A DNA stretch of 64,000 bases from Paraescarpia echinospica. Lineage: Eukaryota > Annelida > Polychaeta > Sabellida > Siboglinidae. Both the position numbers and the translations under genes were made by a program. The stretch covers positions 8,230,798 through 8,294,797 of the forward strand of contig CM034536.1 in NCBI GenBank assembly GCA_020002185.1. The letters run 5' to 3'. The number at the start of each line of letters is the position of its first letter. The first letter of the stretch is position 1. This document shows positions 375-38,470 of this stretch, piece by piece. The notes beneath the pieces were generated by a model. The model was not told where the DNA came from. It did not search any database and worked only from the letters and a program-made list of their open reading frames with translations.

Positions 375-483
375 CCAGGATTTAACAAGACTGCCATCCA
401 GAGCTATAAGCTCCAGACGGCATGTGGACAAGAAAGCCTTTGGCTTATCAAGAGTCCAACAATTTTCCAACTATGTATAGCCC
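375..483 (-). mobile_element. LINE 3'-end fragment (left arm copy)
   Basis: On the minus strand this contains GGACTCTTGATAAGCCAAAG, then a CTTGTCCACATGCC block and a terminal CTTGTTAAAT. The same order of blocks ends the LINE at 61325-61398 (plus) and the nested LINE at 47219-47310 (minus). It is therefore a short 3' remnant of that family, lying 3' of the receptor stop codon. Confidence 0.6.
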
Positions 484-1292: not shown

Positions 1293-1627
1293 TTACTTGC
1301 GATGCACTTCGTCGTAGACACTCGGCTCGTACTGCGAGCCTCCCAGTTCCTGGTACTCTGATTCCCTGTTTGGTGATTCCGGGGCGTGGTCAGCCGGGAT
1401 CTCTTCATAAAGGCTCTCCCCTATCCCCTCCAACAGCTCTATGTAGTACGTCTCATTGGTGTGTGCCTCGCTCCTTAGTGCTGGCTCCTGATCACCTGAC
1501 AAACTGCGTCGCTTGCACACGACGACGATGATGATGATGATGATGAGAACGGCAACACCAACAGCGGCACCAATGAAAATCATGAGAGGGAACGATGATG
1601 TTGGTGGCACTTCTTTGTCGGCGATAC
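1293..1627 (-). CDS. Receptor last exon: transmembrane helix and tyrosine-rich tail (left arm)
   Basis: This is the terminal coding exon. The acceptor is CTTTCTGCAG|GTATC, and it joins in phase (T+GT = Cys) to the Cys-rich exon at 2674-2522. A short Ser/Pro linker leads into a helix of about 23 residues (FPLMIFIGAAVG followed by VAVLI6V3C) with a CKRRS stop-transfer signal, then a cytoplasmic tail of about 70 residues. The tail holds YIEL, eight residues, then YEEI, which is the ITAM spacing; YQEL, YEPS and YDEV follow. YEEI is the classical Src-family SH2 ligand, and all except YEPS also fit the YxxPhi endocytosis motif. Which function applies is inference. The hydrophobic core is encoded by an (ATC)6(GTC)2 run. 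No LRP-type NPxY or PPPSP motif is present. Confidence 0.82.
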
Positions 1628-2521
1628 CTGCAGAAAGTGTCAGAAACAACCGTCAACTTAGCATAATAATAATGACACCTTGTATAGTGCCTGTATCTGC
1701 CAAATATGGCGCTCATTTAGCTTCCTCAAAAATTGTATCTGTTGAGTGGATAAGTAGCGACGATTTGAAAATAATCAGATAAACTATAATAAGCCATTAT
1801 TCTAGATCATTCTTCTAAATATCATCAGATCAGTGTCATAAAAATTATAAAAACAGTATTGTATATAAAATATCAGTACAATTAATATAAAAAGAGCATT
1901 ATCAAAATATTATAGAATCATTATAAATTTCTTTCTAAAAATCACTAGCTGTTTTAAGAATAATGTCATAAATAAGGTAAAATAATGTTTATAAATAGTA
2001 TAAAATCATTATCATAAATAGTTATATATTCATCATCACAAATATTCTAAAAGGGACATTAATATATTCCAAAAATCCTATCACGGAATATGGTTTCCTG
2101 AACTATTAACAAATTACGTATTATGATGACAATTTAAAAACGTTACGTAAAATGCCCCCAACTGATCAGCAAACCTCAGACGAAAAAATATTGCAGATGC
2201 ACAAGTATCGATTGTCTTTATGTGGGAATTTCTCACCAGATATGGGATGTTTAAGCCTTAATTAAAAGGAGAAAATATGTTCCTCTACCCAGAATTAGCC
2301 AGCATTGTAATTTGTAACAAGAAGTCTGCCATGTTGAACGTCGGAAAATGGAAAATCGTTGAACATCAAAAGGTATTGTGATAAACTCAGCCCATCTTGA
2401 GAACATTATATCAAATAATAAATGAAAAACATGGAACAGACAGCTTCTTTTTAATATGTCTAGAAACGTAGGTCATCAGAACGACATGAGCCACGTTTGA
2501 AAGACATGCAGAAGTACTTAC

Positions 2522-2674
2522 ACTGAGCCTGGACAAAGGAGCCGCTGTCAGAGTGGGTCTGGGCGGGACAGTTGCGACACTGGGTCTGACCCTCCAGCTC
2601 CTGGTACATGTTCTCAGCGCACAGAACGCACTTTTTGCTCGCCCTCTCGAAGAACGTTCCCACGGGACACACGA
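2522..2674 (-). CDS. Receptor Cys-rich exon, GCC2/GCC3 (ephrin-receptor-like) (left arm)
   Basis: Exon of 153 nt, phase 1 to phase 1, with acceptor TGTGTTTCAG|TCGTG and donor CAGT|GTAAGTAC. It encodes a CPVGTFF...CVLC...MYQELEGQTQC...CP pattern typical of the GCC2_GCC3 / Tyr-kin_ephrin_A/B_R-like fold, which is found in extracellular proteins such as SCUBE and SVEP1. It would form a disulfide-rich stalk close to the membrane. The first cysteines of the motif come from the preceding exon (CLPGEQQIGTYC). Confidence 0.8.
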
Positions 2675-3635
2675 CTGAAACACAATAAAGTCACCTCTGT
2701 AATACAGTCACCTCTGTAATAAAGTCACTTCTGGGGGCAGTTTCATAAAGCGTACTTAATGTTACGCAATTACTTAGCATTATGTGTTTGCGTAAACTCC
2801 TATGTTCGCTTATTGAAAAAAATCGCGTCACTAAGACAATCATCTTAGCGTCAAGAACATTCCTAGACACTTCATGAAACTGCCCACTGGTTCGCAATTG
2901 TGGTCACCCTAGGACTATCTAGTTATTTCCATATGGCCATGTAAAAAGTCCCGGTTTCTCATTGGCACACGTGTGTATTAAAACGTGCCACAAAATTTAA
3001 TTTTTAAAATATAATTCTTAGTGCTGTCTGTCACAGATGTTGGTGATCATGGCCCTCCAAACCGAATGGTCATTTGTAGCAGTTCTGTTGTGCTCCTTCC
3101 ACACCATGTTGACAGACTAACATTTTTTCTCTGGCATCCTCATTATCCCATTCTAAATATCTGTTCCGACACAATAAGTGAAAACTATGATTTATGTCAA
3201 GCAAACTGAAGTTATCTACAGGTTCGTCGCTTGTAAAAAATACAATTGGTACACATCTTGAGTTGTTGACTGTTGATAATATAGACCAAGTTATAATCAC
3301 TAACACCTCCATCAGCATATTCATGATAAAAATCGTACCATTCAATTACTTGTTGACAAATTGTTTATGAGAAACTGGGATTTTTTCATGTGGCCTAGCC
3401 ATAAAATAAAGGAAGTTAGTCTCACTAATGCGGTCATCTTGCCGTGAACATAGCACACTTCTTAGTCAACTATTTTTTGTTCCCAGAATTAAAACAAGAA
3501 TTGAAATTTTGGTTGAAGCACCAACTCTGCTGAAATTCACTCCCTGTTTGAGATGGGTTAGAGTTAGAGAGACTACTTCTCTCTAACTTGAGGTTAGTTT
3601 TGAGCAATTTTCACCCACTAGGGAGCAATACTCAC

Positions 3636-3868
3636 CACAGTAAGTGCCTATTTGTTGTTCCCCAGGCAGACAGCCCACTTCTGCTTGTGTAAATTTCACA
3701 CTCTTCACTTGTACGTCATCATTGTTGCCGTCTGCGTCCAGTTCGTCCAGTTTCACCTTGTTCTGCCTGATGTCCTGTTCCAACCTTCCCCTCAGATCTC
3801 CTGCCAGTCTGTCCAGTTCCTTCATTGCGTCTTCTGCTTCCTTCTTTTGCTCCTCCGCATCAGTTTCT
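3636..3868 (-). CDS. Receptor coiled-coil exon (left arm)
   Basis: Exon of 233 nt that enters in phase 2 and leaves in phase 1, with acceptor TTGTTTCTGTAG|AGAAAC and donor ACTGTG|GTGAGTAT. Its first half is a charged heptad-like helix (EEQKKEAEDA..., LDRLAGDLRGRLEQDIRQNK) predicted to coil. A linker leads to GCLPGEQQIGTYC, the start of the GCC2/GCC3 module. This suggests an extracellular oligomerising stalk just before the Cys-rich module. The left copy reads Met where the right arm reads Lys (DAMKEL versus DAKKEL). The upstream exon that supplies phase 2 is not in the window. Confidence 0.75.
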
Positions 3869-3904
3869 CTACAGAAACAAACACGGCTCACAAATAAAAG
3901 CCAC

Positions 3905-4675
3905 TCAACATCATTCGGTGCAAGTATTTAGGGGCCAACTATGTGACATCATTCGGTGCAAGTATTTAGGGGCCAACTATGTGACATCATTCGGTGCAAG
4001 TATTTATGGGCCAACTATGTGACATCATTCGGTGCAAGTATTTAGGGGCCAACTATGTGACATCATTCGGTGCAAGTATTTAGGGGCCAACTATGTGACA
4101 TCATTCGGTGCAAGTATTTAGGGGCCAACTATGTGACATCATTCGGTGCAAGTATTTAGGGGCCAACTATGTGACATCATTCGGTGCAAGTATTTAGGGG
4201 CCAACTATGTGACATCATTCGGTGCAAGTATTTAGGGGCCAACTATGTGACATCATTCGGTGCAAGTATTTAGGGGCCAACTATGTGACATCATTCGGTG
4301 CAAGTATTTAGGGGCCAACTATGTGACATCATTCGGTGCAAGTATTTAGGGGCCAACTATGTGACATCATTCGGTGCAAGTATTTAGGGGCCAACTATGT
4401 GACATCATTCGGTGCAAGTATTTAGGGGCCAACTATGTGACATCATTCGGTGCAAGTATTTAGGGGCCAACTATGTGACATCATTCAGTGCAAGTATTTA
4501 GGGGCCAACTATGTGACATCATTCGGTGCAAGTATTTAGGGGCCAACTATGTGACATTATTCGGTGCAAGTATTTAGGGGCCAACTATGTGACATCATTC
4601 GGTGCAAGTATTTAGGGGCCAACTATGTGACATTATTCGGTGCAAGTATTTAGGGGCCAACTATGTGACACTATT
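3905..4675. repeat. 38-bp minisatellite, left arm (about 20 copies)
   Basis: Head-to-tail copies of a 38-bp unit containing TCGGTGCAAGTATTTAGGGG and CCAACTATGTGACATCAT. The array starts about 40 bp upstream of the coiled-coil exon acceptor and forms the inner end of the left arm. Identity between units is very high, with a few single-base variants. It has no spacer diversity, so it is an ordinary minisatellite. Confidence 0.95.
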
Positions 4676-5514
4676 TGAGGACAATTTTGAGACCCCCCAT
4701 CTCATAGGTGGATCCGGACCATTGGAATTTGGCATGCTCCCTAGACCTTTTTGAATGTTCTCCCGTTATTTGCCATTGGAATGTGCCCCCTTTTAGGTTA
4801 CAAATTATAGCGGCACAGCGGCGAAAAGTTTTCAACAGCGCCCCCGTCTTCTAATATCATGATCCGACAGCACGACAGCAGAATTGTGCTTGAAACCTAC
4901 CTAAAAACTGGCTGAACAATGTATACTCCCTCTGTCAGTCCGATATCGACAACTCAATGAACCAACAATTAACAAAATTGTTACATAACACCACAGAACC
5001 CCCCTCCACCCCTTTTAACACTTCGTCGTCATGATTGCCCATAGTTCTCCTATCCCCCCACTTAGCATGACCCCTTCATAATACATTATATTTTGTTTAA
5101 TGTCACATCACAAACTGTCTGTGGCACTTCACAACTTATATTAAAACATGGCCTAAAATTAAAATACGACACCGCTATCTGTACGGTGGCTTGAGACCAA
5201 CAATGGCTCAGGTCACCATTTTTATGGGGTCACACTCTTTGTGAAATGTCATATTTTAATTAACTGTCATATATATCGTAAAAATAACTACTTGACCAAA
5301 TTTGCGGTGCTTTAATTCTGTATGAAAACAAGCTTAGATATTACATCATAATCAACCTGCGTAACCATGGCAACCAGATCATTCTTGGAAATTCTGATGG
5401 GTGTGCTGTTTTGTGGGTGACCATATGTGCATGGTGGCTGTATTACCAAGGTGACCATCAGGCGAGGTTTCACTGTATGTCGACAAATGATTTATAGTTT
5501 CACAAATGACTTGT
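4676..5514. other. Spacer (loop) of the inverted repeat
   Basis: Single-copy sequence of about 840 bp between the two inward-facing 38-bp arrays. I see no exon, no ORF of note and no mobile-element motif. If the palindrome were an artefact, this spacer would be the region just upstream of the 38-bp array in one haplotype. Confidence 0.7.
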
Positions 5515-6729
5515 CACATAGTTGGCCCCTAAATACTTGCACCGAATAATGTCACATAGTTGGCCCCTAAATACTTGCACCGAATGATGTCACATAGTTG
5601 GCCCCTAAATACTTGCACCGAATGATGTCACATAGTTGGCCCCTAAATACTTGCACCGAATGATGTCACATAGTTGGCCCCTAAATACTTGCACCGAATG
5701 ATGTCACATAGTTGGCCCCTAAATACTTGCACCGAATGATGTCACATAGTTGGCCCCTAAATACTTGCACCGAATGATGTCACATAGTTGGCCCCTAAAT
5801 ACTTGCACCGAATGATGTCACATAGTTGGCCCCTAAATACTTGCACCGAATGATGTCACATAGTTGGCCCCTAAATACTTGCACCGAATGATGTCACATA
5901 GTTGGCCCCTAAATACTTGCACCGAATGATGTCACATAGTTGGCCCCTAAATACTTGCACCGAATGATGTCACATAGTTGGCCCCTAAATACTTGCACCG
6001 AATGATGTCACATAGTTGGCCCCTAAATACTTGCACCGAATGATGTCACATAGTTGGCCCCTAAATACTTGCACCGAATGATGTCACATAGTTGGCCCCT
6101 AAATACTTGCACCGAATGATGTCACATAGTTGGCCCCTAAATACTTGCACCGAATGATGTCACATAGTTGGCCCCTAAATACTTGCACCGAATGATGTCA
6201 CATAGTTGGTCCCTAAATACTTGCACCGAATGATGTCACATAGTTGGCCCCTAAATACTTGCACCGAATGATGTCACATGGTTGGCCCCTAAATACTTGC
6301 ACCGAATGATGTCACATAGTTGGCCCCTAAATACTTGCACCGAATGATGTCACATAGTTGGTCCCTAAATACTTGCACCGAATGATGTCACATAGTTGGT
6401 CCCTAAATACTTGCACCGAATGATGTCACATAGTTGGCCCCTAAATACTTGCACCGAATGATGTCACATAGTTGGCCCCTAAATACTTGCACCGAATGAT
6501 GTCACATAGTTGGCCCCTAAATACTTGCACCGAATGATGTCACATAGTTGGCCCCTAAATACTTGCACCGAATGATGTCACATAGTTGGCCCCTAAATAC
6601 TTGCACCGAATGATGTCACATAGTTGGCCCCTAAATACTTGCACCGAATGATGTCACATAGTTGGCCCCTAAATACTTGCACCGAATGATATCACATAGT
6701 TGGCCCCTAAATACTTGCACCGAATGATG
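5515..6729. repeat. 38-bp minisatellite, right arm (about 32 copies)
   Basis: Reverse complement of the left-arm array with about 12 more copies. Variants include GGTCCC for GGCCCC in several units near 6200-6400. The array ends about 40 bp before the coiled-coil exon at 6770. Confidence 0.95.
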
Positions 6730-6769
6730 TTGAGTGGCTTTTATTTGTGAGCCGTGTTTGTTTCTGTAG

Positions 6770-7002
6770 AGAAACTGATGCGGAGGAGCAAAAGAAGGAA
6801 GCAGAAGACGCAAAGAAGGAACTGGACAGACTGGCAGGAGATCTGAGGGGAAGGTTGGAACAGGACATCAGGCAGAACAAGGTGAAACTGGACGAACTGG
6901 ACGCAGACGGCAACAATGATGACGTACAAGTGAAGAGTGTGAAATTTACACAAGCAGAAGTGGGCTGTCTGCCTGGGGAACAACAAATAGGCACTTACTG
7001 TG
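6770..7002 (+). CDS. Receptor coiled-coil exon (right arm copy)
   Basis: Second copy of the exon at 3868-3636, with the same splice sites and phases (2 in, 1 out) and one visible amino-acid difference (Lys for Met at DAKKEL). It has no upstream exon, because only the 38-bp array, the spacer and the opposite arm lie 5' of it. As it stands this copy cannot give a complete protein unless it splices to something outside the window. Confidence 0.75.
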
Positions 7003-7973
7003 GTGAGTATTGCTCCCTAGTGGGTGAAAATTGCTCAAAACTAACCTCAAGTTAGAGAGAAGTAGTCTCTCTAACTCTAACCCATCTCAAACAGGGAGTG
7101 AATTTCAGCAGAGTTGGTGCTTCAACCAAAATAGCCAAAATTTCAATTCTTGTTTTAATTCTGGGAACAAAAAATAGTTGACTAAGAAGTGTGCTATGTT
7201 CACGGCAAGATGACCGCATTAGTGAGACTAACTTCCTTTATTTTATGGCTAGGCCACATGAAAAAATCCCAGTTTCTCATAAACAATTTGTCAACAAGTA
7301 ATTGAATGGTACGATTTTTATCATGAATATGCTGATGGAGGTGTTAGTGATTATAACTTGGTCTATATTATCAACAGTCAACAACTCAAGATGTGTACCA
7401 ATTGTATTTTTTTACAAGCGACGAACCTGTAGATAACTTCAGTTTGCTTGACATAAATCATAGTTTTCACTTATTGTGTCGGAACAGATATTTAGAATGG
7501 GATAATGAGGATGCCAGAGAAAAAATGTTAGTCTGTCAACATGGTGTGGAAGGAGCACAACAGAACTGCTACAAATGACCATTCGGTTTGGAGGGCCATG
7601 ATCACCAACATCTGTGACAGACAGCACTAAGAATTATATTTTAAAAATTAAATTTTGTGGCACGTTTTAATACACACGCGTGCCAATGAGAAACCGGGAC
7701 TTTTTACATGGCCATATGGAAATAACTAGATAGTCCTAGGGTGACCACAATTGCGAACCAGTGGGCAGTTTCATGAAGTGTCTACGAATGTTCTTGACGC
7801 CAAGATGATTGTCTTAGTGACGCGATTTTTTTCAATAAGCGAACATAGGAGTTTACGCAAACACATAATGCTAAGTAATTGCGTAACATTAAGTACGCTT
7901 TATGAAACTGCCCCCAGAAGTGACTTTATTACAGAGGTGACTGTATTACAGAGGTGACTTTATTGTGTTTCAG

Positions 7974-8126
7974 TCGTGTGTCCCGTGGGAACGTTCTTCG
8001 AGAGGGCGAGCAAAAAGTGCGTTCTGTGCGCTGAGAACATGTACCAGGAGCTGGAGGGTCAGACCCAGTGTCGCAACTGTCCCGCCCAGACCCACTCTGA
8101 CAGCGGCTCCTTTGTCCAGGCTCAGT
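7974..8126 (+). CDS. Receptor Cys-rich GCC2/GCC3 exon (right arm copy)
   Basis: Duplicate of 2674-2522. Acceptor TGTTTCAG|TCGTG and donor CTCAGT|GTAAGTAC are preserved. The preceding exon's last G plus TC gives Val, so the joined protein reads TYC-VVCPVGTFF. Confidence 0.8.
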
Positions 8127-9020
8127 GTAAGTACTTCTGCATGTCTTTCAAACGTGGCTCATGTCGTTCTGATGACCTACGTTTCTAGACATATTAAAAA
8201 GAAGCTGTCTGTTCCATGTTTTTCATTTATTATTTGATATAATGTTCTCAAGATGGGCTGAGTTTATCACAATACCTTTTGATGTTCAACGATTTTCCAT
8301 TTTCCGACGTTCAACATGGCAGACTTCTTGTTACAAATTACAATGCTGGCTAATTCTGGGTAGAGGAACATATTTTCTCCTTTTAATTAAGGCTTAAACA
8401 TCCCATATCTGGTGAGAAATTCCCACATAAAGACAATCGATACTTGTGCATCTGCAATATTTTTTCGTCTGAGGTTTGCTGATCAGTTGGGGGCATTTTA
8501 CGTAACGTTTTTAAATTGTCATCATAATACGTAATTTGTTAATAGTTCAGGAAACCATATTCCGTGATAGGATTTTTGGAATATATTAATGTCCCTTTTA
8601 GAATATTTGTGATGATGAATATATAACTATTTATGATAATGATTTTATACTATTTATAAACATTATTTTACCTTATTTATGACATTATTCTTAAAACAGC
8701 TAGTGATTTTTAGAAAGAAATTTATAATGATTCTATAATATTTTGATAATGCTCTTTTTATATTAATTGTACTGATATTTTATATACAATACTGTTTTTA
8801 TAATTTTTATGACACTGATCTGATGATATTTAGAAGAATGATCTAGAATAATGGCTTATTATAGTTTATCTGATTATTTTCAAATCGTCGCTACTTATCC
8901 ACTCAACAGATACAATTTTTGAGGAAGCTAAATGAGCGCCATATTTGGCAGATACAGGCACTATACAAGGTGTCATTATTATTATGCTAAGTTGACGGTT
9001 GTTTCTGACACTTTCTGCAG

Positions 9021-9355
9021 GTATCGCCGACAAAGAAGTGCCACCAACATCATCGTTCCCTCTCATGATTTTCATTGGTGCCGCTGTTGGTGTTGCCGTT
9101 CTCATCATCATCATCATCATCGTCGTCGTGTGCAAGCGACGCAGTTTGTCAGGTGATCAGGAGCCAGCACTAAGGAGCGAGGCACACACCAATGAGACGT
9201 ACTACATAGAGCTGTTGGAGGGGATAGGGGAGAGCCTTTATGAAGAGATCCCGGCTGACCACGCCCCGGAATCACCAAACAGGGAATCAGAGTACCAGGA
9301 ACTGGGAGGCTCGCAGTACGAGCCGAGTGTCTACGACGAAGTGCATCGCAAGTAA
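9021..9355 (+). CDS. Receptor last exon: TM and ITAM-like tail (right arm copy)
   Basis: Duplicate of 1627-1293, ending in TAA at 9353-9355. The acceptor is CTTTCTGCAG at 9011-9020. The TM helix, CKRRS stop-transfer and the full tyrosine series (YIEL-x8-YEEI, YQEL, YEPS, YDEV) are identical to the left arm, so the tail is conserved between the copies. Confidence 0.82.
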
Positions 9356-10184
9356 CACGTTGTAGCCGCGCATGCCGGTGCCATACGAACAAATCCAGCG
9401 CTAGTATTGCACCACAGACAAGTCTGTGAATCATCTTCTGCAGTGCTGATGGTTATGTAGTAATACGGTTTGTCTTGATACTAATACTGTATGTAACTAA
9501 GTTTGGATAATCACACTACTACTGTTGACAGGTAAATAGCAAAATTAACTGCTTCACATGTACACATTTCCTATTGATCATGTCACTCTTATTAGTTATT
9601 AAAAAATATGATGATGTAGACATTCCTAATACTGTCAACAGATAAATGGCCATTTGGATAACCAGACTACACATTTTCTAGCGTAGACAGCTAAATAATA
9701 TTACTCCCAATTCAGTTGACAACGAAATGTCAGTCTGTGGAATCTGCATTTTAGTGAGCTTTTTTGAAAATTCGTTACAACTTAAAGCGAGATTTTGATC
9801 TGCATTGCCATTGTACAAGTACCAGCTCTGGGTGAGTTCTAAAATAACTCAACTCACAGTGTCTTTTCTTTAAAGCCAATGCTCATCTATCTGATTGACT
9901 AAAACAAGATGAGCACTGTTGTGTTCATATAAAATAAGACCCAGGGATGACTATTTCTATATCTAAAAATATATGTTATGTAGTCAAACAAGGCTAGGAA
10001 CAGCCAACTTTTTAAGGCAGATCACCAACTCTAAGTACTCCTCGTGTTAACTGGAAGAGCCTTGTTAGTAACATGACACCTGTGGTACTTTTGCCAAGCT
10101 GTGGAAACACTTTCATATTTTAACATGCATTGACCTAATCATAGTAGGTTATGCTGTGTTCCACTGGGCTATACATAGTTGGAA

Positions 10185-10282
10185 AATTGTTGGACTCTTG
10201 ATAAGCCAAAGGCTTTCTTGTCCACATGCCGTCTGGAGCTTATAGCTCTGGATGGCAGTCTTGTTAAATCCTGGTAAGTGCC
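10185..10282 (+). mobile_element. LINE 3'-end fragment (right arm copy)
   Basis: Contains GGACTCTTGATAAGCCAAAG, CTTGTCCACATGCC and TCTTGTTAAAT, the terminal blocks of the LINE family seen at 61325-61398 and 47219-47310. It is the mirror of 375-483. Confidence 0.6.
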
Positions 10283-10648
10283 TTATATTTTTATTTTCTG
10301 CATAGGTAAAACTTAAAGTTACAATTAACTAGATGCATTTGCATGTTTTAGTAACTCCAAATAACATATATTTGTATTCAAGGACCAATTTTTAGACTTA
10401 TGATTTTAAGCAGGATGTTTCAGACGCAAGGTTATGAGGGACACCATAATGACTGTGTTTTTGAACACCCTAAAATCAACAACAAAAATATCTGTACTGT
10501 ATGTTTTCAGAGAGAATTTTTTTTTTTTTTGTCCGAATGCATAAAACCTGTAATGACAGTCTGTATTTGGACATAAATTCCCGTAATGGCAGTCTGTATT
10601 TGGTCATAGAACCCGTAATGACAGTCTGTATTTGGACATAGAACCCGT

Positions 10649-12519
10649 AACGACAGTCTGTATTTGGACATAAAACCCATAATGACAGATTGTATTTGGG
10701 CATTGTATGTTTTCCGACACAAAACAAAATTGTTTTTTGTACTGTATGTTTCAGGACAGCTGATAATTTAATTATTTTAGGTGTCCGTCCCAATACATAG
10801 TCATCATGGTAGTAATTAAGGTATTACTCAGTATTACACTGTTTTAGAAAAGGTTGCGATTAGGCAGATGGTAGAATGGCAAGAAGCAGGGCAAACTCCT
10901 ATAACCCAGTGTAGCTATGGAATGGAAATTGTCTGTTATGAAAGTAGCATCTGCATGAACCTATCTGATATACAGACAGAATTTATGTATAATGAATTAC
11001 ATTCCTAATAAATGTATTCTATCATCCTCGCAAGCCAGGGCTGTGTGCATCTAACATTGCATCTAACACGAGCCACGGTTGGTTGAAATTATTTTATTGA
11101 CCACCTGACCTGCCTCCAAACCACTGGATCTAGTGAGAGCTCTATAGGCTGAGCTTTAAATTCAGAGTTTCAAGTAAAGTGATCAGCCAGGGGGTACTAC
11201 AGCACTGACGTAATCAGCAGCAGCGACCCTGGTGCACGAGGATGTATCTCCTGTGAACGTTTACTCATCTCCCATTGTTGTAACATCTTACTATAATTGA
11301 GCTTATCTATGTATGCAGGCAGGTTAACACTTTCCTCTTAGACGGCTTGAACCTCGAGCATCAAACTTTCAGGGAATAACCTATGACCCTACAATAGGAC
11401 GTAAAACCTGTATACCAGGTATTTTTAAAATACCCCATAACGGTAATGTCAAGATTCTCACCTTTCATAGAGTAAATCAGTTGTTTGGAACATAAAACAT
11501 ATTATGTGTGTAAAACATAACTTAATTGCAGGAACCACACCGGCATGGCAAATACTTAGGGAAAACTACCTCTACATCACTGATTTGGCAACATGACGTA
11601 GACGCTAACACAAGTCTACCCTCATGTCAATAGCATAGCAATATTATTTGACAATTCTACACTATTACATATAGGGCCTATCGATGGACATGAACTTCAT
11701 ATTCTCTCTGACCATCATTATTTTGAACATACAGTGATGCCGTGTGTTTTCTAACATTTGATAAATATTGCTATCACAACTCTCAACTACCAAGGCATCA
11801 TGTCAGGGGACGGGCGTTTTTTCTAGTTACTAATAATACTCTGCTTGCTTCTTTGGAGTTGTGAACAGGAAAGCACAAGTGTGGAAAATATTCTGGTCAT
11901 GATAATCAAAAGGAAACCTATTACATGATTTGGGTAAATGCATGTAGATTATCAAGCCAGAGCGAATTACGTGAAATAACAGAACAGTGTTTTCCTATAC
12001 ACCAGGTGAGAGTTTATTAACCACCAGCCTTACGTAGTGAATCAAAGTATACATTTGTGATGTGTTCATTACACAAATAAACATTTGGGGGTTGGTTGCT
12101 TCATGCAATTGTTTGGTTATTTGTACATATTGTTCAACTTCTAGTAGGCGTACATAAAATACATATATAGTGTGGATTTATAGCCTTATAAAGTTAATTC
12201 ACCGAGTTACTCAAGTGTTCAAACACTCGAGTACTGATTCAAGAGCTGTAGTCTTCAAACAGTAACTCTTTAAAAGGGAATGCACAATTTCCATTGTTAA
12301 CTGTTCGATTGTTTGGGAGGACACTGGAATACTAGTTTAGTTAAAAATAAGTAATTACTATTTTCAAAAATAAACAGCTTTGCATCTGTTTTACTTCAAT
12401 TAAACAAAGACCTCCACATCTGAAGAGGAAATATATTGTTAACAGGATGGCTTATTGGTTTATAAAATCCCTGTTTTTATGCAATTTCTCATGGTAAATT
12501 TATTACAGCAAAACAGATT
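10649..12519. other. Unassigned 3' flank before the gap
   Basis: Past the 32-bp repeat this is ordinary AT-rich sequence with no exon-like ORF or transposon motif that I can recognise on either strand. An AATAAA occurs near 11006 (CTAATAAATG), but nothing ties it to the 9355 stop codon. The sequence ends at the assembly gap. Confidence 0.5.
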
Positions 12520-13519
12520 NNNNNNNNNNNNNNNNNNNNNNNNNNNNNNNNNNNNNNNNNNNNNNNNNNNNNNNNNNNNNNNNNNNNNNNNNNNNNNNNN
12601 NNNNNNNNNNNNNNNNNNNNNNNNNNNNNNNNNNNNNNNNNNNNNNNNNNNNNNNNNNNNNNNNNNNNNNNNNNNNNNNNNNNNNNNNNNNNNNNNNNNN
12701 NNNNNNNNNNNNNNNNNNNNNNNNNNNNNNNNNNNNNNNNNNNNNNNNNNNNNNNNNNNNNNNNNNNNNNNNNNNNNNNNNNNNNNNNNNNNNNNNNNNN
12801 NNNNNNNNNNNNNNNNNNNNNNNNNNNNNNNNNNNNNNNNNNNNNNNNNNNNNNNNNNNNNNNNNNNNNNNNNNNNNNNNNNNNNNNNNNNNNNNNNNNN
12901 NNNNNNNNNNNNNNNNNNNNNNNNNNNNNNNNNNNNNNNNNNNNNNNNNNNNNNNNNNNNNNNNNNNNNNNNNNNNNNNNNNNNNNNNNNNNNNNNNNNN
13001 NNNNNNNNNNNNNNNNNNNNNNNNNNNNNNNNNNNNNNNNNNNNNNNNNNNNNNNNNNNNNNNNNNNNNNNNNNNNNNNNNNNNNNNNNNNNNNNNNNNN
13101 NNNNNNNNNNNNNNNNNNNNNNNNNNNNNNNNNNNNNNNNNNNNNNNNNNNNNNNNNNNNNNNNNNNNNNNNNNNNNNNNNNNNNNNNNNNNNNNNNNNN
13201 NNNNNNNNNNNNNNNNNNNNNNNNNNNNNNNNNNNNNNNNNNNNNNNNNNNNNNNNNNNNNNNNNNNNNNNNNNNNNNNNNNNNNNNNNNNNNNNNNNNN
13301 NNNNNNNNNNNNNNNNNNNNNNNNNNNNNNNNNNNNNNNNNNNNNNNNNNNNNNNNNNNNNNNNNNNNNNNNNNNNNNNNNNNNNNNNNNNNNNNNNNNN
13401 NNNNNNNNNNNNNNNNNNNNNNNNNNNNNNNNNNNNNNNNNNNNNNNNNNNNNNNNNNNNNNNNNNNNNNNNNNNNNNNNNNNNNNNNNNNNNNNNNNNN
13501 NNNNNNNNNNNNNNNNNNN
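12520..13519. other. Assembly gap of exactly 1000 N
   Basis: The run of N is exactly 1000, a conventional placeholder of unknown true size. It joins the palindrome-bearing contig to the contig with the receptor's 5' exons. Its right edge begins inside a 48-bp tandem array, a likely cause of the gap. The missing linker exon or exons of the receptor may lie in it. Confidence 0.98.
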
Positions 13520-14230
13520 CTGCTAACACAATCACAATCATAACATGTCAACTTCTAACAAGACACTGTGCTGCTAACACAATCATCATAACATGTCAAC
13601 TTCTAACAAGACACTGTGCTGCTAACACAATCATCATAACATGTCAACTTCTAACAAGACACTGTGCTGCTAACACAATCACTGTAACATGTCAACTTCT
13701 AACAAGACACTGTGCTGCTAACACAATCACTGTAACATGTCAACTTCTAACAAGACACTGTACTGCTAACACAATCACTGTAACATGTCAACTTCTAACA
13801 AGACACTGTGATGCTAACACAATCACTGTAACATGTCAACTTCTAACAAGACACTGTGCTGCTAACACAATCACTGTAACATGTCAACTTCTAACAAGAC
13901 ACTGTACTGCTAACACAATCACTGTAACATGTCAACTTCTAACAAGACACTGTGATGCTAACACAATCACTGTAACATGTCAACTTCTAACAAGACACTG
14001 TGCTGCTAACACAATCACTGTAACATGTCAACTTCTAACAAGACACTGTACTGCTAACACAATCACTGTAACATGTCAACTTCTAACAAGACACTGTGAT
14101 GCTAACACAATCACTGTAACATGTCAACTTCTAACAAGACACTGTGCTGCTAACACATAACATGTCAACTTCTAACAAGACACTGTGCTGCTAACGCAAT
14201 CACTGTAACATGTCAACTTCTAACAAGACA
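13520..14230. repeat. 48-bp minisatellite at the gap edge
   Basis: About 15 copies of a 48-bp unit containing ATGTCAACTTCTAACAAGAC and ACTGTGCTGCTAACACAATC, decaying at the right end into two diverged copies up to about 14335. The array runs into the N gap, so its true length is unknown. Confidence 0.93.
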
Positions 14231-14510
14231 AGCAGTGATGATATGTACCATAAACATCACAACTGGTCACCTTCTAATAAGACAAACAGTGATGCAATCA
14301 TAATCGTTGCAACACATCAACTTCTAACAAGACAAATGGTGCTAAATGGTTATGGTGCTATATCAAATAAATATTATATTATTATAGAGGGGAGTGGAGA
14401 CAGCAATGCATGAGCACGTAGGCTGCCTCCACCCGTACTGCCAGGGAAGTAGAGGAGCTCTAAAAATTGAACTAACTTAAAATACTCTATTTAGTAATAA
14501 CTCAACTCAC

Positions 14511-14621
14511 CGTCTTCACATCCAGCTTTATTTTGTGTAAGCATCTTGGCTTTAGGACAGCTGCATTCGTAGCCGCCAGGAACCGCACTGCATGTTTCCT
14601 CACAGTTGTTGGAAGGGCATG
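14511..14621 (-). CDS. Receptor exon 18: third EGF-like domain
   Basis: Exon of 111 nt, phase 1 to 1, with acceptor CTTTTCAG|CATG and donor GAAGACG|GTGAGT. It encodes CPSNNCEETC...GGYECSC...GC, a six-cysteine LRP-type EGF with the usual C-x-C fourth and fifth cysteines. It follows propeller 3 and is the last exon before the gap. Confidence 0.88.
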
Positions 14622-17600
14622 CTGAAAAGAAATCATCACCATACCACAACAGCAACGTTAAGGGACAGTCTTATAATTTCAAAAATAAAAATAAAAAACA
14701 TGCATTTAGTATTGGTTCAATCTCTATTCCTCCGTAAATGTGCTGGGGGACGTGCGATTTTTAAGACCCAAAATTGCTATTAGCACGAATTTGCCAGGAG
14801 GCGCCACTGTTGCAATATATTTTCCCCGTGATATGTGGTGATGAATCCCTCCTGCGTGTAAGGCTCAACTTACTCTGGGACTTTGCAAATTACGCAACCA
14901 TATGGTGAATATTGTAAAAAATACTAATAGTTTTCACATTACTGTGCCATGTCATATGTAAGTACTTTGTATCAGGCCTTTCAGTAAATATATGTGTTTC
15001 TGGTTATATGAATGACCCTGATAAATGTAGCCAATCATAGCCATTCTTACAACATGATAACAAAAAAATATAATTCACTTGTAATCCTACACAAATCCAA
15101 ACGAAATCAAAAATATAAATTTTAATCACATGAATAGTGTTAAAATATATGATATTTTTTATGGCGTATCTCATCATCTCACTAGAAACAGAAGCCGAGA
15201 AAGAATGTAATATTTCTACACACTTGTCAGAGCCCCGTTGTAGTGAACTATGACCTGTGAAGGTCGCATGAGGCCAGCAGCAAGTATCTCGATGCGTCCT
15301 GTATCCAGGTTGACCCGGGATAATGAACGTTCCTTCCAGTCTGTGTACCACAGGAAGTTTTCCTCCGCAAAGACGGAGTAGATGTGGGACGCCATAATGT
15401 AGCGCAGACGTTTCGCGGATGTGCCTAGGGAAGGAATAAAACATCATTATGAATAATTTTTTTATTTTGGGGATTGTAATTAATATATTTCTAATTTACA
15501 CCTACCCATATTACATAATAATAATAATATATATAATTTGTGATAGCGCCAGATCGACAATTGTTCATGGCACTTTACACTACATCATATGTCATCATCA
15601 TTAAACCAAAATACTCGCACTAAGACAGTCATTTAAACTTTAAATTGTGCCATACAATAGTAATAAAAATATTAGTAAATAAATTAAGTAAAAGACAACA
15701 AAATAATTGGAATATGGTTGTAAGATGTTAACTTAAAATAACCACAGTACCATATAACATAACCAATAAATTATAATGCATAAATTAATCACTAAAATGT
15801 TGCAGTATAAAATCAAATAAATAAATAGTTCTAAAATATTACTAATATAAATAAGTCCACTGGATCTCTGAGGAAAGTCAGAAACAAGCTACTAGCGTTC
15901 GTCTACAATGTTATTCTAAATAAATATGTTTCAGTTGACATTTAAAACTACCAAGAAGTTAAGAAAATTTAATGTAATTAGGTAGTGTTCCAGAGAATAG
16001 CAGCAGCCACCACGAACGAACTGTAATGTACAGGAAGTAGAATATTTGAATTTGCAAAATGCCTTTTGATGGTGTCTCCTGGAGTATTCATAAACAAAGA
16101 CGGAGGAAACAGTCTCCTGGAGTATTCTTAAACAAAGAAGGAGGAAACAGTCTCCTGGAGTATTCGTAAACAAAGATGGAGGAAACAGTCTCCTGGAGTA
16201 TTCGTAAAAAAAGATGGAGGAAACAGTCTCCTGGAGTATTCGTAAACAAAGATGGAGGAAACAGTTTCCTGGAGTATTCGTAAACAAAGATGGAGGAAAC
16301 AGTCTCCTGGAGTATTCGTAAACAAAGATGGAGGAAACAGTCTCCTGGAGTATTCATTAACAAAGATGGAGGAAACAGTCTCCTAGAATATTCATTAACA
16401 AAGATGGAAGAACAGTCTCCTGGAGTATTCATGAACAAAGATGGAGGAAACAGTCTCCTGGAGTATTCGTAAACAAAGATGGAGGAAACAGTCTCCTGGA
16501 GTATTCGTAAACAAAGATGGAGGAAACAGTCTCCTGGAGTATTCGTAAACAAAGATGGAGGAAACAGTCTCCTGGAGTATTCGTAAACAAAGATGGAGGA
16601 AACAGTCTCCTGTAGTATTCGTAAACAAAGATGGAGGAAACAGTCTCCTGGAGTATTCGTAAACAAAGATGGAGGAAACAGTCTCCTGGAGTATTCGTAA
16701 ACAAAGATGGAGGAAACAGTCTCCTGGAGTATTCGTAAACAAAGATGGAGGAAACAGTCTCCTGTAGTGTTTGTAAACAAAGATGGAGGAAACAGTCTCC
16801 TGGAGTATTCGTAAACAAAGATGGAGGAAACAGTCTCCTGTAGTATTCGTAAACAAAGATGGAGGAAAGAGTCTCCTGGAGTATTCGTAAACAAAGATGG
16901 AGGAAACAGTCTCCTGGAGTAGTTCTAAATGACGTTTGTCATGATCTAAATACAAAACAGGTTTTCACTTCAACAGAAGTTATGTCAAAGTGACTGTGAT
17001 ATCACGAACAATCAGTTTACGCTATGATTTATGAACAATTTATTTATGTTCCGGTACAAAACATAAAACAAATACAAAACCCTTAACTACGAAAAAATAA
17101 AGGAGTTACTTTTCTTCTGGATGAATCACTATATTTTAACATACCCGCAGTCCGCACATGCACACAAACACACACACATACAAACACACAAACACACACA
17201 CATAAACATACAACACACATACAAACAGACACACACACACATGCACACACACATACAAACACACACACATACAAATACACACAGACACACACACTCACAC
17301 ACACACACAAACACACACACATACAAATACACACACACAGACACACACACCCAAACATACAAACACACAGACACACACACCCAAACATACAAACACACAC
17401 ACACACACACACACACAGACAGACACACACACTCACACACACACAAACATACAAACACACACACATACAAACACACACACACTCACACAAACACACACAC
17501 ACACACACACACACTAGCTCACTAGTAGTCGGATACACACTACCATTAGTCAATGATCGTGTGGGTAATTATTGGGATTTCATGGAAACATTCTTTGAAA

Positions 17601-20600
17601 TGGGGTGTGGGCATTAAATTGGTTTCCACATCCAAAATTACAATCAGCAAATACAGTAATTGGGACAAAGTACAACTGTCACACCTGGCTTGCAAGTGAA
17701 ACAGGATCGGTGATAAAAGAAAACAAAATATCTATCACCAGTACCGAGGCCAGCCTTACAAAAGGGAGAAAGGAGCATAACAACTAGTGTAAACTTACCA
17801 TCTAGGTTGCTTTCAAACACGTGACCAGAGGCATCACCAATATACAAGGTATTATTCATAATTGCCAATCCATTTATTCTGTCTAGTCCATCTGCATTCG
17901 CCGCAGACAGGATGGTCTCATTAGAGCCAGAGGAGATACTCTTTCGGGCGACACGAGCTTTGTCTCCCCACTCCGCCCAGTAGACATAACTGAAACAAAC
18001 AACACCAGATAATTAATTATGAGCTTAATTAATAATAATAATATTATATATGTAATATAGTAACAAGTAAAGTTAAGTTCTTATATAGCGCAGTATCCAG
18101 TCCTCAGGACTGCTCAAAGCACTTTACTCCCTGGCAAACCTGTTCAATTGAACATCATCACGACTTCTCTGGAAGCATTCAGCCATGCTGCAATTAATGC
18201 ACAAAGACTGTTCATACACAAATATCCATGTTATACTGCGGCCAATTATAACAGTCTAAACAGCCAACAAATTCCCTCATTATCGACCACAGCTCACTTT
18301 TAAAAATATCAGTTATTACCTGCGCAAAAAACATATTCTTACAAAATGGCCAGTATTACATTTTGTATATACATACTTTATATTACTCAAACTGATAATG
18401 ATAATAACAAAGAACACCTTCAAAGATTACACACATGTTCATGTATGTAGTTATTATAATTACGTACAGTTTTACCAGAACTGCCCATCAGCATATCTGA
18501 CCAGTCTCTTTCTAATCAGGCCACCTCTTTTGTTAGACCATTTTGTGCTGATCACTTGGGTGGTCGCTTTAGAGGGGTTCTACTCTACTCCTCATAAGAA
18601 TACAATTAAATACCTTACCCTGCATGTACTACCACAGCTCGCGGTTTCCTTGCCGTGTCACCAGCCAGAAATATGGTGCTGTTGTTGTTGCCAGTGAGTT
18701 CCTTATAAGCGATGGCTCCGGTGGTGTAGTCTGTCCAATAGAGCCTTGAGTTGGTGCTGTCCAAGGCCAGGCCATCAACCACATGTCCCGTGTTATAAAA
18801 CACGCTTGGCTGGGCGCTTCCTTCCAACGGGACTGAGTAAATCCTGCCTCTGTCAAAAGGAAACTTCTCGTATGGATTTATATCAAAGTTTAATCGAGCT
18901 AGCATACGTGTCTGTGAGGGTACGTTAACGTTTTCAAGAATAATCTATGACAGTTATGAAGAAAAGTAACGCCTATATTTTTCTGAAAATTCACCTTAGG
19001 TTAAGGTTTCTTACCAATTTTAGGGTTCGTACCATACGTCAGATGGACACAACTTGATTGCTCATAACGCTACACATATTTTATATAATTTACATCAATG
19101 CCATCTTTGATTTAGTTTCTCTAGTTCAGTTTTGTATTTATATGTTTTATTTGTATTATTATTATATTTCTTTCTTATAATTTCTAACGACTATTGTCAA
19201 CACTACTGAACAGAGTTCTACTTTGGATTTTAGTGTCTAAATAAAGTTATTAATATTATTTATTATTTTCTATGATTAACCCAAGGACGAATCAGTTGGG
19301 GATGTTATATGCAACTTGTTTTAATGCAAAAAACTGTTTCAAATTTTTATCATAACAACTATCATTTATGAATTCTCCAGGAAAGAGCAATTTAAGCAAA
19401 ATTACCTCATTGACAGGAACAGACAATTTACTTCTTAAGCCGGGTGTAGCAGTTTCCACAGTCGAACTCCACAACATCTCCACAAGCAACTCCCTCCAAC
19501 TAACAACTCCCTCCAACTAACAACTCCCTCCAACTAACAACTCCCTCCAACTAACAACTCCCTCCAACTAACAACTCCCTCCAACTAACAACTCCCTCCA
19601 ACTAACAACTCCCTCCAACTAACAACTCCCTCCAACTAACAACTCCCTCCAACTAACAACTCCCTCCAACTAACAACTCCCTCCAACTAACAACTCCCTC
19701 CAACTAACAACTCCCTCCAACTAACAACTCCCTCCCTTTAACAACTAACAACTCCCTCCAACTAACAATGCCCTCCAACTAACAACTCCCTCCAACTAAC
19801 AACTCCCTCCAACTAACAACTCCCTCCAACTAACAACTCCCTCCAACTAACAACTCCCTCCAACTAACAACTCCCTCCAACTAACAACTCCCTCCAACTA
19901 ACAACTCCCTCCAACTAACAACTCCCTCCAACTAACAACTTCCTCCAACTAACAACTTCCTCCAACTAACAACTTCCTCCAATTAACAACTCCCTCCAAC
20001 TAACAACTCCCTCCAACTAACAACTCCCTTTAACTAACAACTCCCTCCAACTAACAACTCCCTCCAACTAACAACTCCCTCCAACTAACAACTCCCTTTA
20101 ACTAACAACTCCCCCCAACTAACAACTTCCTCCAACTAACAACTCCCTCCAACTAACAACTGACAATGCCCTCCAACTAACAACTCCCTCCAACTAACAA
20201 CTCCCTCCAACTAACAACTCCCTCCATCTAACAACTCCCTCCAATTAACAACTCCCTCCAACTAACAACTCCCTCCAACTAACAACTCCCTCCAACTAAC
20301 ATCTCCCTCCAACTAACAACTCCCTCCAGCTAACAACTCCCCCCAACTAACAACTCCCTCCAACTAACAACTCCCTCCAATTAACAACTCCCTCCAACTA
20401 ACAACTCCCCCCAACTAACAACTTCCTCCAACTAACAACTTCCTCCAACTAACAACTTCCTCCAACTAACAACTCCTCCAACTAACAACTAACAACTCCC
20501 TCCAATTAACAACTCCCTCCAACTAACAACTCCCTCCAACTAACAACTCCCTTTAACTAACAACTCCCCCCAACTAACAACTTCCTCCAACTAACAACTT

Positions 20601-23600
20601 CCTCCAACTAACAACTCCCTCCAACTAACAACTCCCTCCAACTAACAATGCCCTCCAACTAACAACTCCCTCCAACTAACAACTCCCTCCAACTAACAAC
20701 TCCCTCCAGCTAACAACTCCCTCCAACTAACAACTCCCTCCAACTAACAACTCCCTCCAACTAACAACTCCCTCCAACTAACAACTCCCTCCAACTAACA
20801 ACTCCCTCCAACTAACAACGCCCTCCAACTAACAACGCCCTCCAACTAACAACTCCCTCCAACTAACGATGCCCTCCAACTAACAATGCCCTCCAACTAA
20901 CAACTCCCTCCAACTAACGATGCCCTTCAACTAATAACGCCCTCCAATTAACAACGCCCTCCAACTAACAACGCCCTCCAACTAACAACTCCCTCCAATT
21001 AACAAGTTCCTCCAATTAACAACTCCCTCCAACTAACAGCATCCTCCAACGAACAATGCACTCCAACTAACAACTCCCTCCAACTAACAACTCCCTCCAA
21101 CTAACCACTCCCTCCAAATAACAACTCCCTCCAACTAACAACTCCCTCCAAATAACAACTCCCTCCAACTAACCACTCCCTCCAAATAACAACTCCCTCC
21201 AACTAACAACTCCCTCCAACTAACAATTCCCTCCAACTAACAACTCCCTCCAAATAACAACTCCCTCCAACTAACAACTCCCTCCAAATAACAACTCCCT
21301 CCAACTAACCACTCCCTCCAAATAACAACTCCCTCCAACTAACAAATAACAACTCCCTCCAACTAACAACTCCCTCCAAATAACAACTCCCTCCAACTAA
21401 CAACTCCCTCCAAATAACAACTCCCTCCAACTAACCACTCCCTCCAAATAACAACTCCCTCCAACTAACAACAAATAACAACTCCCTCCAACTAACAACT
21501 CCCTCCAAATAACAACTCCCTCCAACTAACCACAACTCCCTCCAACTAACAACTCCCTCCAAATAACAACTCCCTCCAACTAACAACTCCCTCCAAATAA
21601 CAACTCCCTCCAACTAACAACTCCCTCCAAATAACAACTCCCTCCAACTAACCACTCCCTCCAAATAACAACTCCCTCCAACTAACAATTCCCTCCAAAT
21701 AACAACTCCCTCCAACTAACAACTCCCTCCAAATAACAACTCCCTCCAACTAACCACTCCCTCCAAATAACAACTCCCTCCAACTAACAATTCCCTCCAA
21801 CTAACAACTCCCTCCAACTAACAACTCCCTCCAACTAACAACTCCCTCCAACTAACAACTCCCTCCAACTAACAATTCCCTCCAACTAAAAACTCCCTCC
21901 AACTAACAACTCCCTCCAACTAACAACTCCCTCCAAATAACAACTCCCTCCAACTAACAATTCCCTCCAACTAAAAACTCCCTCCAACTAACAACTCCCT
22001 CCAACTAACAACTCCCTCCAACTAACAACTCCCTCCAATTAACAACTCCCTCCAACTAACAACTCCCTCCAACTAACAACTCCCTCCAACTAACATCTCC
22101 CTCCAACTAACAACTCCCTCCAGCTAACAACTCCCCCCAACTAACAACTCCCTCCAATTAACAACTCCCTCCAACTAACAACTCCCCCCAACTAACAACT
22201 TCCTCCAACTAACAACTTCCTCCAACTAACAACTTCCTCCAACTAACAACTCCCTCCAACTAACAACTCCCTCCAACTAACAACTCCCTCCAACTAACAA
22301 CTCCCTCCAACTAACAACTCCCTCCAACTAACAACTCCCTCCAACTAACAACTCCCTTTAACTAACAACTCCCTTTAACTAACAACTCCCCCCAACTAAC
22401 AACTTCCTCCAACTAACAACTTCCTCCAACTAACAACTCCCTCCAACTAACAACTCCCTCCAACTAACAATGCCCTCCAACTAACAACTCCCTCCAACTA
22501 ACAACTCCCTCCATCTAACAACTCCCTCCAGCTAACAACTCCCTCCAACTAACAACTCCCTCCAACTAACAACTCCCTCCAACTAACAACTCCCTCCAAC
22601 TAACAACTCCCTCCAACTAACAACGCCCTCCAACTAACAACTCCCTCCAACTAACGATGCCCTCCAACTAACAATGCCCTCCAACTAACAACTCCCTCCA
22701 ATTAACAACTCCCTCCAACTAACAATGCCCTCCAACTAACAACTCCCTCCAACTAACAACGTCCTCCAACTAACAATGCCCTCCAACTAACAACTCCCTC
22801 CAACTAACAACGTCCTCCAACTAACAACTCCCTCCAATTAACAACTCCCTCTAACTAACAACTCCCTCCAACTAACAACTCCCTCCAACTAACGATGCCC
22901 TTCAACTAATAACGCCCTTCAACTAATAACCCCCTCCAACTAACAATGCCCTCCAACTAACAACTCCTTCCAATTAACAACTCCCCCCAACTAACAACTC
23001 CCTCCAACTAACAACTCCCTCCAACTAACAACTGCCTCCAATTAACAACTCCCTCCAATTAACAACTCCCTCCAACTAACAACTCCCTCCAACTAACAAC
23101 TCCCTCCAACTAACAACACCCTCCAACTAACAACTCCCTCCAACTAACGATGCCCACCAACTAACAACTGCCTCCAATTAACAACTGCCTCCAACTAACA
23201 GCATCCTCCAACTAACAATGCCCTCCAACTAACAACTCCCACCAACTAACAACGTCCTCCAACCAACAACTCCCTCCAATTAACAACTCCCTCCAACTAA
23301 CAACTCCCTCCAACTAACAAGTCCCTCCAACTAACAACTCCCTCCAACTAACGATGCCCTTCAACTAATAACGCCCTCCAACTAACAATGCCCTCCAACT
23401 AACAACGCCCTCCAACTAACAACTCCCTCCAATTAACAACTCCCTCCAATTAACAACTCCCTCCAACTAACAGCATCCTCCAACGAACAATGCCCTCCAA
23501 CTAACAACTCCCTCCAACTAACAACTTCCTCCAACTAACAACTCCCTCCAACTAACAACTCCCTCCAACTAACAATTCCCTCCAACTAAAAACTCCCTCC

Positions 23601-26600
23601 AACTAACAACTCCCTCCAACTAACAACTCCCGTCAACTAACAACTCCCTCCAAATAACAACTCCCTCCAACTAACAATTCCCTCCAACTAAAAACTCCCT
23701 CCAACTAACAACTCCCGTCAACTAACAACTCCCTACAACTAACAACTCCCTCCAACTAACAACTCCCTCCAACTAACAACTCCCTCCAACTAACAATGCC
23801 CTCCAACTAACAACTCCCTCCAACTAACAACTCCCTCCAGCTAACAACGCCCTCCAACTAACAACTCCCTCCAACTAACAACTCCCTCCAACTAACAACT
23901 CCCTCCAACTAACAACTCCCTCCAACTAACAACTCCCTCCAACTAACAACTCCCTTTAACTAACAACTCCCCCCAACTAACAACTTCCTCCAACTAACAA
24001 CTTCCTCCAACTAACAACTTCCTCCAACTAACAACTTCCTCCAACTAACAACGCCCTCCAACTAACAACTCCCTCCAACTAACGATGCCCTCCAACTAAC
24101 AACGCCCTCCAACTAACAACGCCCTCCAACTAACAACTCCCTCCAATTAACAACTCCCTCCAACTAACAGCATCCTCCAATTAACAATGCCCTCCAACTA
24201 ACAACTCCCTCCAACTAACAACTCCCTCCAACTAACAACTCCCTCCAACTAACAACTCCCTCCAACTAACAACTCCCTTTAACTAACAACGCCCTCCAAC
24301 TAACAACTCCCTCCAACTAACAACGCCCTCCAACTAACAACTCCCTCCAACTAACGATGCCCTCCAACTAACAACGCCCTCCAACTAACAACGCCCTCCA
24401 ACTAACAACTCCCTCCAATTAACAACTCCCTCCAACTAACAACTCCCTCCAACTAACAACTCCCTCCAACTAACAACTCCCTCAAATTAACGATGCCCTC
24501 CAACTAATAACGCCCTCCAACTAACAACGCCCTCCAACTAACAACTCCCTCCAATTAACAACTCCCTCCAATTAACAACTCCCTCCAACTAACAGCATCC
24601 TCCAATGAACAATGCCCTCCAACTAACAACTCCCTCCAATTAACAACTCCCTCCAACTATCAGCATCCTCCAACTAACAATGCCCTCCAACTAACAACTC
24701 CCTCCAACTAACAACGTCCTCCAACTAACAACTCCCTCTAATTAACAATTCCCTCCAACTAACAACTCCCTCCAACTAACAACTCCCTCCAACTAACGAT
24801 GCCCTCCAACTAGTAACGCCCTCCAACTAACAACGCTCTCCAACTAACAACTCCCTCCAATTAACAACTCCCTCCAATTAACAACTCCCTCCAAGTAACA
24901 GCATCCTCCAAAGAACAATGCCCTCCAACTAACAACTCCCTCCAACTAACAACTTCCTCCAACTAACAACTCCCTCCAATTAACAACTCCCTCCAACTAA
25001 CAACTCCCTCCAAATAACAACTCCCTCCAACTAACAATTCCCTCCAACTAAAAACTCCCTCCAACTATCAACTCCCTCCAACTAACAACTCCCGTCAACT
25101 AACAACTCCCTACAACTAACAACTCCCTCCAACTAACAACTCCCTACAACTAACAACTCCCTCCAACTAACAACTCCCTCCAACTAACAATGCCATCCAA
25201 CTAACAACTCCCTACAACTAACAACTCCCTCCAAGTAACAACGCCCTCCAACTAACAACGCCCTCCAACTAACAACGCCCTACAACAACTCTCTCCAACT
25301 AACAACGTCCTCCAACTAACAATGCCCTACAACTAACAACTCCCTCCAATTAACAACTCCCTCCAACTAACAACTCCCTCCAACTAACAACTCCCTCCAA
25401 CTAACAACTCTCTCCAACTAACAACTCTCTCCAACTAACAACGTCCTCCAACTAACAACTCCCTCCAATTAACAACTCCCTCCAACTAACAACTCCCTCC
25501 AACTAACAACTCCCTCCAACTAACAACTCTCTCCAACTAACAACGTCCTCCAACTAACAACTCCCTCCAACTAACAACTCCCTCCAACTAACAACTCCCT
25601 CCAACTAACAACTCTCTCCAACTAACAACGTCCTCCAACTAACAACTCCCTACAACTAACAACTCCCTCCAATTAACAACTCCCTCCAACTAACAACTCC
25701 CTCCAACTAACAACTCCGTACAACTAACAACTCCCTCCAATTAACAACTCCGTCCAACTAACAACGCCCTCCAACTAACAACGCCCTACAACTAACAACG
25801 CCCTCCAACTAACAACGCCCTACAACTTTGGGCAAAATATTTCCTGTAATACGAGTCATTGTGATGACATATCTTTCAATAGAATAAGGGTTAATATTTA
25901 ATGTTGCGCTTGTATAATATCTGATTTCTCACCTGTCCACTCCGCTGTAGTACACGGTACGTGTGGCGGGATTGTAGGCGATGGCCACAAAGTTTGAGAA
26001 ATAACCGTTGCCCTGCACCAATGTATAGACATCCTTGTCTGGAGTTCCATCAAGTCCAATCATCTTGACACTCCCCATGTCAGCAAATAGCAGAAAGTTG
26101 CTTGGAACTGAAGAAAACAGAATATCAAAAATGCATCTATGATGTGGGAGAGTCTACAGAACTGCTCAAAGCACTTTACACTTTACTCCCTCACAGACCT
26201 GTTCTATTGAACACCATCTCGATTTGCTGCACTTAATGCGTGAAGACTATTTGTACACAAATATCCACCAGTGTATATAGCCAGGTACTCATTCATACAG
26301 CTGAGTGAATTGGAGCAAATTAGAGTGAACGAACTTGCCCAAAGTTTGACACCACAGCACAGGATTCGAACCCGGGTTCTCTCAGTCGAGAGTCCGAAGC
26401 TCTAGCCAATGTGATTTGGGAGTTTTCATGCAATTCGGAGAGTAGAATGTGAGTGACAGATAGAGGGAGTGGATGGAAGTTGGTGGTGGAGACGGCAGTA
26501 TGGGATTAGTAACGCAAGAGGGAAAACAAAAGATCGAAGACCAGTATTGGTAAGAAAGAGTGCAAAACACATGCATTATATTTAGTTTGTTGGGTTTGGC

Positions 26601-38439: not shown

Positions 38440-38470
<31 letters not shown>

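Follow-up and report, generated by a model that had tools for sequence, protein, structure and literature searches.

Separate tyrosine motifs, probably not a conserved ITAM, in the cytoplasmic tail of a probable LRP-like annelid receptor

Introduction

Is the tyrosine-rich cytoplasmic tail of a probable LRP-like annelid receptor built around an ITAM, or does it carry a set of separate tyrosine motifs? LRP-family receptors are endocytic, YxxPhi motifs bind clathrin adaptors, and Src-family SH2 domains prefer pYEEI. In the window (the whole stretch of 64,000 nucleotides analysed here) a preliminary description, made from the sequence alone, had read the string YIEL-x8-YEEI as an ITAM that could couple a YWTD/EGF ectodomain to Src/Syk-type signalling, and had named separate YxxPhi sorting motifs as the rival reading. 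The ITAM consensus, as PMC12058738 gives it, is YxxL/I-x6-8-YxxL/I.

Results

We obtained a model of 21 exons on the minus strand (43590..1293), joined by splice site and phase, in which one frame stays open from Met to stop across a gene of 42 kb (Table 1). Exon 6 (38390..38104) probably uses a GC donor, forming a GC-AG intron: the unbroken match to the relative P0001 reaches 38104, past a GT donor at 38182, and the model with exon 6 extended to 38104 has 1213 residues. Pfam was run on a 1134-residue model made without exons 1 and 2 and without the end of exon 6, in which the YWTD repeats scored 109.6 bits (cut-off 21) as PF00058 (Ldl_recept_b), and Ephrin_rec_like was found with E 1.6e-8. 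The EGF-like cysteine pattern was recognised by eye in three exons (33142, 27212 and 14621), no EGF family being listed by Pfam for the 1134-residue model; FXa_inhibition in P0001 scored 27.8, under its cut-off of 33.4.

Table 1. Positions of the receptor gene, its tail motifs and the repeated last exon within the window
Feature	Position	Strand	Basis	State in relatives
Exon 1: start codon and signal-peptide-like MTPYLTVCLLLFATVTGVNS (by eye)	43518..43590	minus	tblastn with P0001, exon joining	
Exon 2: first propeller begins	42776..42861	minus	tblastn with P0001, exon joining	
15 exons: YWTD (Ldl_recept_b) repeats and two EGF-like repeats (cysteine pattern)	15224..42007	minus	Pfam PF00058 E 9.5e-32; tblastn with P0001	
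Exon: third EGF-like repeat	14511..14621	minus	cysteine pattern	
Exon: charged segment preceding the cysteine domain	3636..3866	minus	P0001 1487-1560, 69%	
Exon: Ephrin_rec_like (GCC2/GCC3-type) cysteine domain	2522..2674	minus	Pfam PF07699 E 1.3e-10; matching phases	
Last exon: linker, transmembrane helix, cytoplasmic tail, stop	1293..1627	minus	splice site, phase, ORF; tblastn to P0001 1613-1723, 60%	
Transmembrane helix FPLMIFIGAAVGVAVLIIIIIIVVV	1518..1592	minus	by eye; CKRR next, from 1517 downwards	
YIEL, first half of the ITAM match	1434..1445	minus	tail alignment	P0001 YMQP, P0002 YMQS (changed)
YEEI, second half of the ITAM match	1398..1409	minus	tail alignment	P0001 YEDI, P0002 YDDI; PAD next in all three (conserved)
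YQEL	1344..1355	minus	tail alignment	P0001 YAGL
YEPS	1320..1331	minus	tail alignment	P0001 has Lys for Tyr
YDEV	1305..1316	minus	tail alignment	P0001 YDKV
Second, base-identical copy of the last exon	9021..9355	plus	inverted-repeat comparison	

Since the ectodomain combines an ephrin-receptor-like domain with YWTD repeats and candidate EGF-like repeats, "LRP-like" is a fair name, and the single-pass, YWTD-bearing, LRP-like receptor put forward in the preliminary description is supported by the Ldl_recept_b match, the P0001 alignment and the gene model. What the locus shares with the LRP and LDL-receptor family are the Ldl_recept_b repeats and, as judged by eye, candidate EGF-like repeats (by cysteine pattern), a signal-peptide-like start and one transmembrane helix. 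It differs in its membrane-adjacent ephrin-receptor-like domain, in the HYR and VWC domains that Pfam finds in the relatives, in having no LDL-receptor class A family match in the Pfam scans of the 1134-residue model, P0001 or P0002 (the window holding only part of the ectodomain), and in a tail sequence from which NPxY and PPPSP are absent. Just before the first motif, within the AHTNE-x-YY that all three tails share, the tail has NETY (1446-1457, minus strand; NEAY in both relatives), an N-x-x-Y that resembles a degenerate NPxY. We therefore regard the region as the transmembrane and tail exon of a probable single-pass receptor of the LRP-like (YWTD/EGF) kind, akin to the LDL-receptor family, from an annelid that, judging by the relatives found, is probably a siboglinid or near to that group.

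The last exon follows the acceptor ctttctgcag, ends with the stop codon TAA at 1295-1293 and is linked in phase to the upstream cysteine-rich exon by a split Cys codon. Its product reads IADKEVPPTSS-(transmembrane helix)-CKRRSLSGDQEPALRSEAHTNETYYIEL-LEGIGESL-YEEI-...-YQEL-...-YEPS-V-YDEV-HRK-stop, where the helix is a 25-residue hydrophobic stretch recognised by eye, without a predictor. Counted from CKRR the tail has 74 residues and six tyrosines, four of which lie within YxxPhi motifs (YIEL, YEEI, YQEL and YDEV), and with exactly 8 residues between YIEL and YEEI the string after the helix matches YxxL/I-x6-8-YxxL/I. The translation bears out the order given in the preliminary description (helix, CKRR, YIEL-x8-YEEI, YQEL, YEPS, YDEV); its coordinates were exact, and the strand, which it left unstated, is minus. 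We considered whether the exon could be a spurious open reading frame, which is ruled out by the splice phases and by the relatives. An 8052-nt contig encodes the 1723-residue P0001, colinear with the window exons through to the tail, and because a 5.2-kb reading frame lies there on one 8-kb contig as against a 42-kb gene here, that contig looks like cDNA, which would be an indirect sign that the last exon is transcribed. When the tail exon was compared with Pfam and PDB, every match was weak (best E 0.0064, below its cut-off, and 0.032).

The left end of the window lies within an inverted repeat, in which 1-4670 is 99.4% identical to 10648-5968 and the last three exons are duplicated head to head. 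With a 38-bp satellite set aside, 6 substitutions and 3 indels separate the two arms over 3.9 kb, and the repeat could be an assembly artefact, a second haplotype or a real duplication. Near it lies a gap of 1000 N (12520-13519), and about 514 residues of P0001 (972-1485, with VWC, HYR and other stretches) had no counterpart between 14511 and 3866, where tblastn against the window (E up to 0.01) gave nothing for them except a short extension of the EGF-like exon; these missing ectodomain residues were probably lost in the gap or in misassembly. As they are absent where the repeat and the gap lie, either the local assembly is suspect or the gene is rearranged. The tail sequence is unaffected by this doubt, because it is identical in both copies. 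A single sequencing error was also considered as the source of YIEL, and set aside: both repeat copies carry it, although they are perhaps not independent sequence, and three codons differ from YMQP. The 38-bp arrays occupy 3908-4670, 5512-6730 and 16074-16929; an intronic array of about 372 copies of a 17-bp unit (6.3 kb, 19487-25827) lies inside the receptor gene, and LTR-retrotransposon-like open reading frames, with a zinc knuckle, a DSGA protease and a reverse transcriptase recognised by eye, are found at 46494-51168 on the minus strand.

A protein search with model residues 880-1134 (E up to 0.001, 1344 candidates scored) returned two relatives, P0001 and P0002, and the same two came back from a wider search (E up to 0.01, 1788 candidates), which gave no further relative. 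With E up to 1e-10, scoring being limited to the 7982 candidates with the most words in common, again no further relative with this C-terminus was found, and three other HYR-domain proteins were added, one of which (P0003) is by eye a run of HYR repeats. P0001 is the only full-length relative found, with 80% identity to the window gene (964 of 1207 aligned residues). P0002 is the hypothetical protein LSAT2_002357 of Lamellibrachia satsuma, a siboglinid annelid tubeworm, and is 53% identical across 78% of the C-terminal stretch used as query; in the alignment it is the more distant of the two (54% identity to the window versus 71% for P0001). It shares with the window CKRR, AHTNE-x-YY and the Y-acidic-acidic-I-PAD site, and differs in having YMQS for YIEL and in a model that stops after YDDIPAD.

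Against P0001, identity is lower in the tail (45 of 74 residues) than across the other aligned residues (919 of 1133), and within the tail P0001 and P0002 are more alike (29 of 43) than the window and P0002 (22 of 43), which fits a faster-changing tail in the lineage of the window or a different relationship among the genes. The comparison covers three sequences, the window and two relatives; because P0002 ends after the second motif, the last three tail sites could be compared once only. The P0001 tail also has 74 residues, with YxxL and YDxV at the same offsets of 54 and 67, and three of the four YxxPhi motifs of the window survive in it at unchanged positions; by count there are four such motifs in the window, three in P0001 and one in the truncated P0002.

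The ITAM match fares otherwise. It occurs once in the window tail and in neither relative, and widening the spacing to x6-12 leaves these counts as they are, the first half being YMQP or YMQS in the relatives. The preliminary description had looked to the tails of relatives for a preserved ITAM, and none was found there: the distance between the two tyrosines held (12, 12 and 13 in the three tails), whereas the Leu/Ile at +3 of the first half did not. An ITAM as a conserved feature of this receptor is thus rejected, as both relatives lack its first half. Conservation in the tail is highest at AHTNE-x-YY and, separated from its second Tyr by 11 or 12 residues, at Y-[ED]-[ED]-I-P-A-D. Tyrosines as a class were kept in 5 of 6 cases, not significantly better than other tail residues (p = 0.24), and the data alone therefore do not establish selection on any tail tyrosine.

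In shuffles of the 74-residue tail an ITAM match arose in 1.4%, and at least four YxxPhi motifs (the number observed) in 0.35%. When the four YxxPhi blocks were kept and only their order was randomised, an ITAM match appeared in 25% and the exact x8 spacing in 8.6%. The excess in this tail is in the number of YxxPhi motifs, not in the ITAM spacing, and the match follows easily from their abundance. In six-frame translations of the window the ITAM pattern occurs 29 times in 119,097 residues, 2 of these being the two copies of the last exon and 14 belonging to one simple-repeat stretch (starting at 54504-54616).

Discussion

We favour, at a probability of roughly 0.7, an LRP-like receptor whose tail would bear separate tyrosine motifs and not a conserved ITAM, its best-kept element, Y-[ED]-[ED]-I-P-A-D, having a form that would suit the docking of a Src-type SH2 domain or sorting as a YxxPhi signal. 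The exon structure, the YWTD ectodomain, the motifs themselves and the lack of an ITAM in both relatives found are observed; from them we infer the phosphorylation, SH2 or adaptor binding, internalisation and direction of change proposed here. The conserved site might be phosphorylated by a Src-family kinase and then dock the SH2 domain of that kinase; alternatively, the unphosphorylated site might direct internalisation as a YxxPhi motif, in the way known from other endocytic receptors. Both roles would fit, and they are not mutually exclusive. YIEL, which completes the ITAM string here, would most simply be a lineage-specific change: because the more distant P0002 also has YMQx, that form probably came first and YIEL later (by parsimony on three sequences). 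Of the Src/Syk-type coupling first envisaged for this tail, the Src half stands in part, a YEEI-type site that could bind a Src-type SH2 domain being kept in all three tails (YEEI, YEDI and YDDI), while the ITAM on which the Syk half depends is carried by neither relative. As a counterpoint to separate motifs, the kept Tyr-Tyr spacing (12, 12 and 13) may allow a partner that binds two phosphotyrosines with relaxed demands at +3.

A tail that serves sorting alone, with clathrin adaptors recognising its YxxPhi motifs and no phosphotyrosine signalling, is a branch of the preferred reading whose probability overlaps with it, and we hold it to be a serious though lesser prospect. The separate YxxPhi motifs that had been named as the rival do fit better than the ITAM, with three of four in place in P0001, and endocytosis is the general business of LRP-family receptors; yet the acidic residues at +1 and +2 of YEEI/YEDI/YDDI, kept in all three tails, are not required by a plain YxxPhi signal. 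A true ITAM, gained or kept in this lineage, which Src-family kinases would phosphorylate and which would then recruit a tandem-SH2 kinase of the Syk or Shark type, as in Draper and Megf10, seems improbable to us. The string does fit the consensus exactly (as given in PMC12058738) and both inverted-repeat copies bear it, and a kinase partner could exist, since invertebrates possess Syk-like and SHARK kinases (PMC10253181) and expression of a Syk gene is described in oyster (PMC4883820); against this, the first half is kept in none of the two relatives and the spacing is to be expected in a quarter of random motif orders. Less probable still is a functional ITAM-like element of non-standard spacing in the second pair, YQEL-x9-YDEV, with Val at +3. 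P0001 repeats the YxxL and YDxV frames of this pair at the same distance (YAGL-x9-YDKV), but the pair falls outside the x6-8 spacing, lacks L/I at the second +3 and is covered by one relative only.

The closest functional comparison is with the engulfment receptors Draper, Megf10 and CED-1, which likewise are single-pass and have tyrosines in the tail; Draper, which carries both an ITAM and an NPxY, is a substrate of Src42a and a binding partner of Shark (PMC8092387). These receptors differ in having an EMI and EGF-like/Nimrod ectodomain in place of YWTD repeats, and the tail here has no NPxY and its relatives no ITAM. Although speculative, and in our view unlikely, it is attractive to think that the ancestral tail already had a YEEI-like site of the Src type and a fixed array of tyrosines (two of them 12-13 apart, then YxxL-x9-YDxV), and that changes from YMQx to YIEL made a full ITAM of it in this lineage. 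An annelid LRP-like receptor would then signal via Src-family and tandem-SH2 kinases, and this YWTD-bearing protein would be a receptor for engulfment or for recognising microbes. A real ITAM would carry the Draper/Megf10 mode of tyrosine-kinase signalling over to YWTD/EGF receptors, possibly in worms known for bacterial symbiosis. As found, the locus illustrates that tails rich in YxxPhi motifs readily match the ITAM consensus, half of which one full-length relative was enough to remove.
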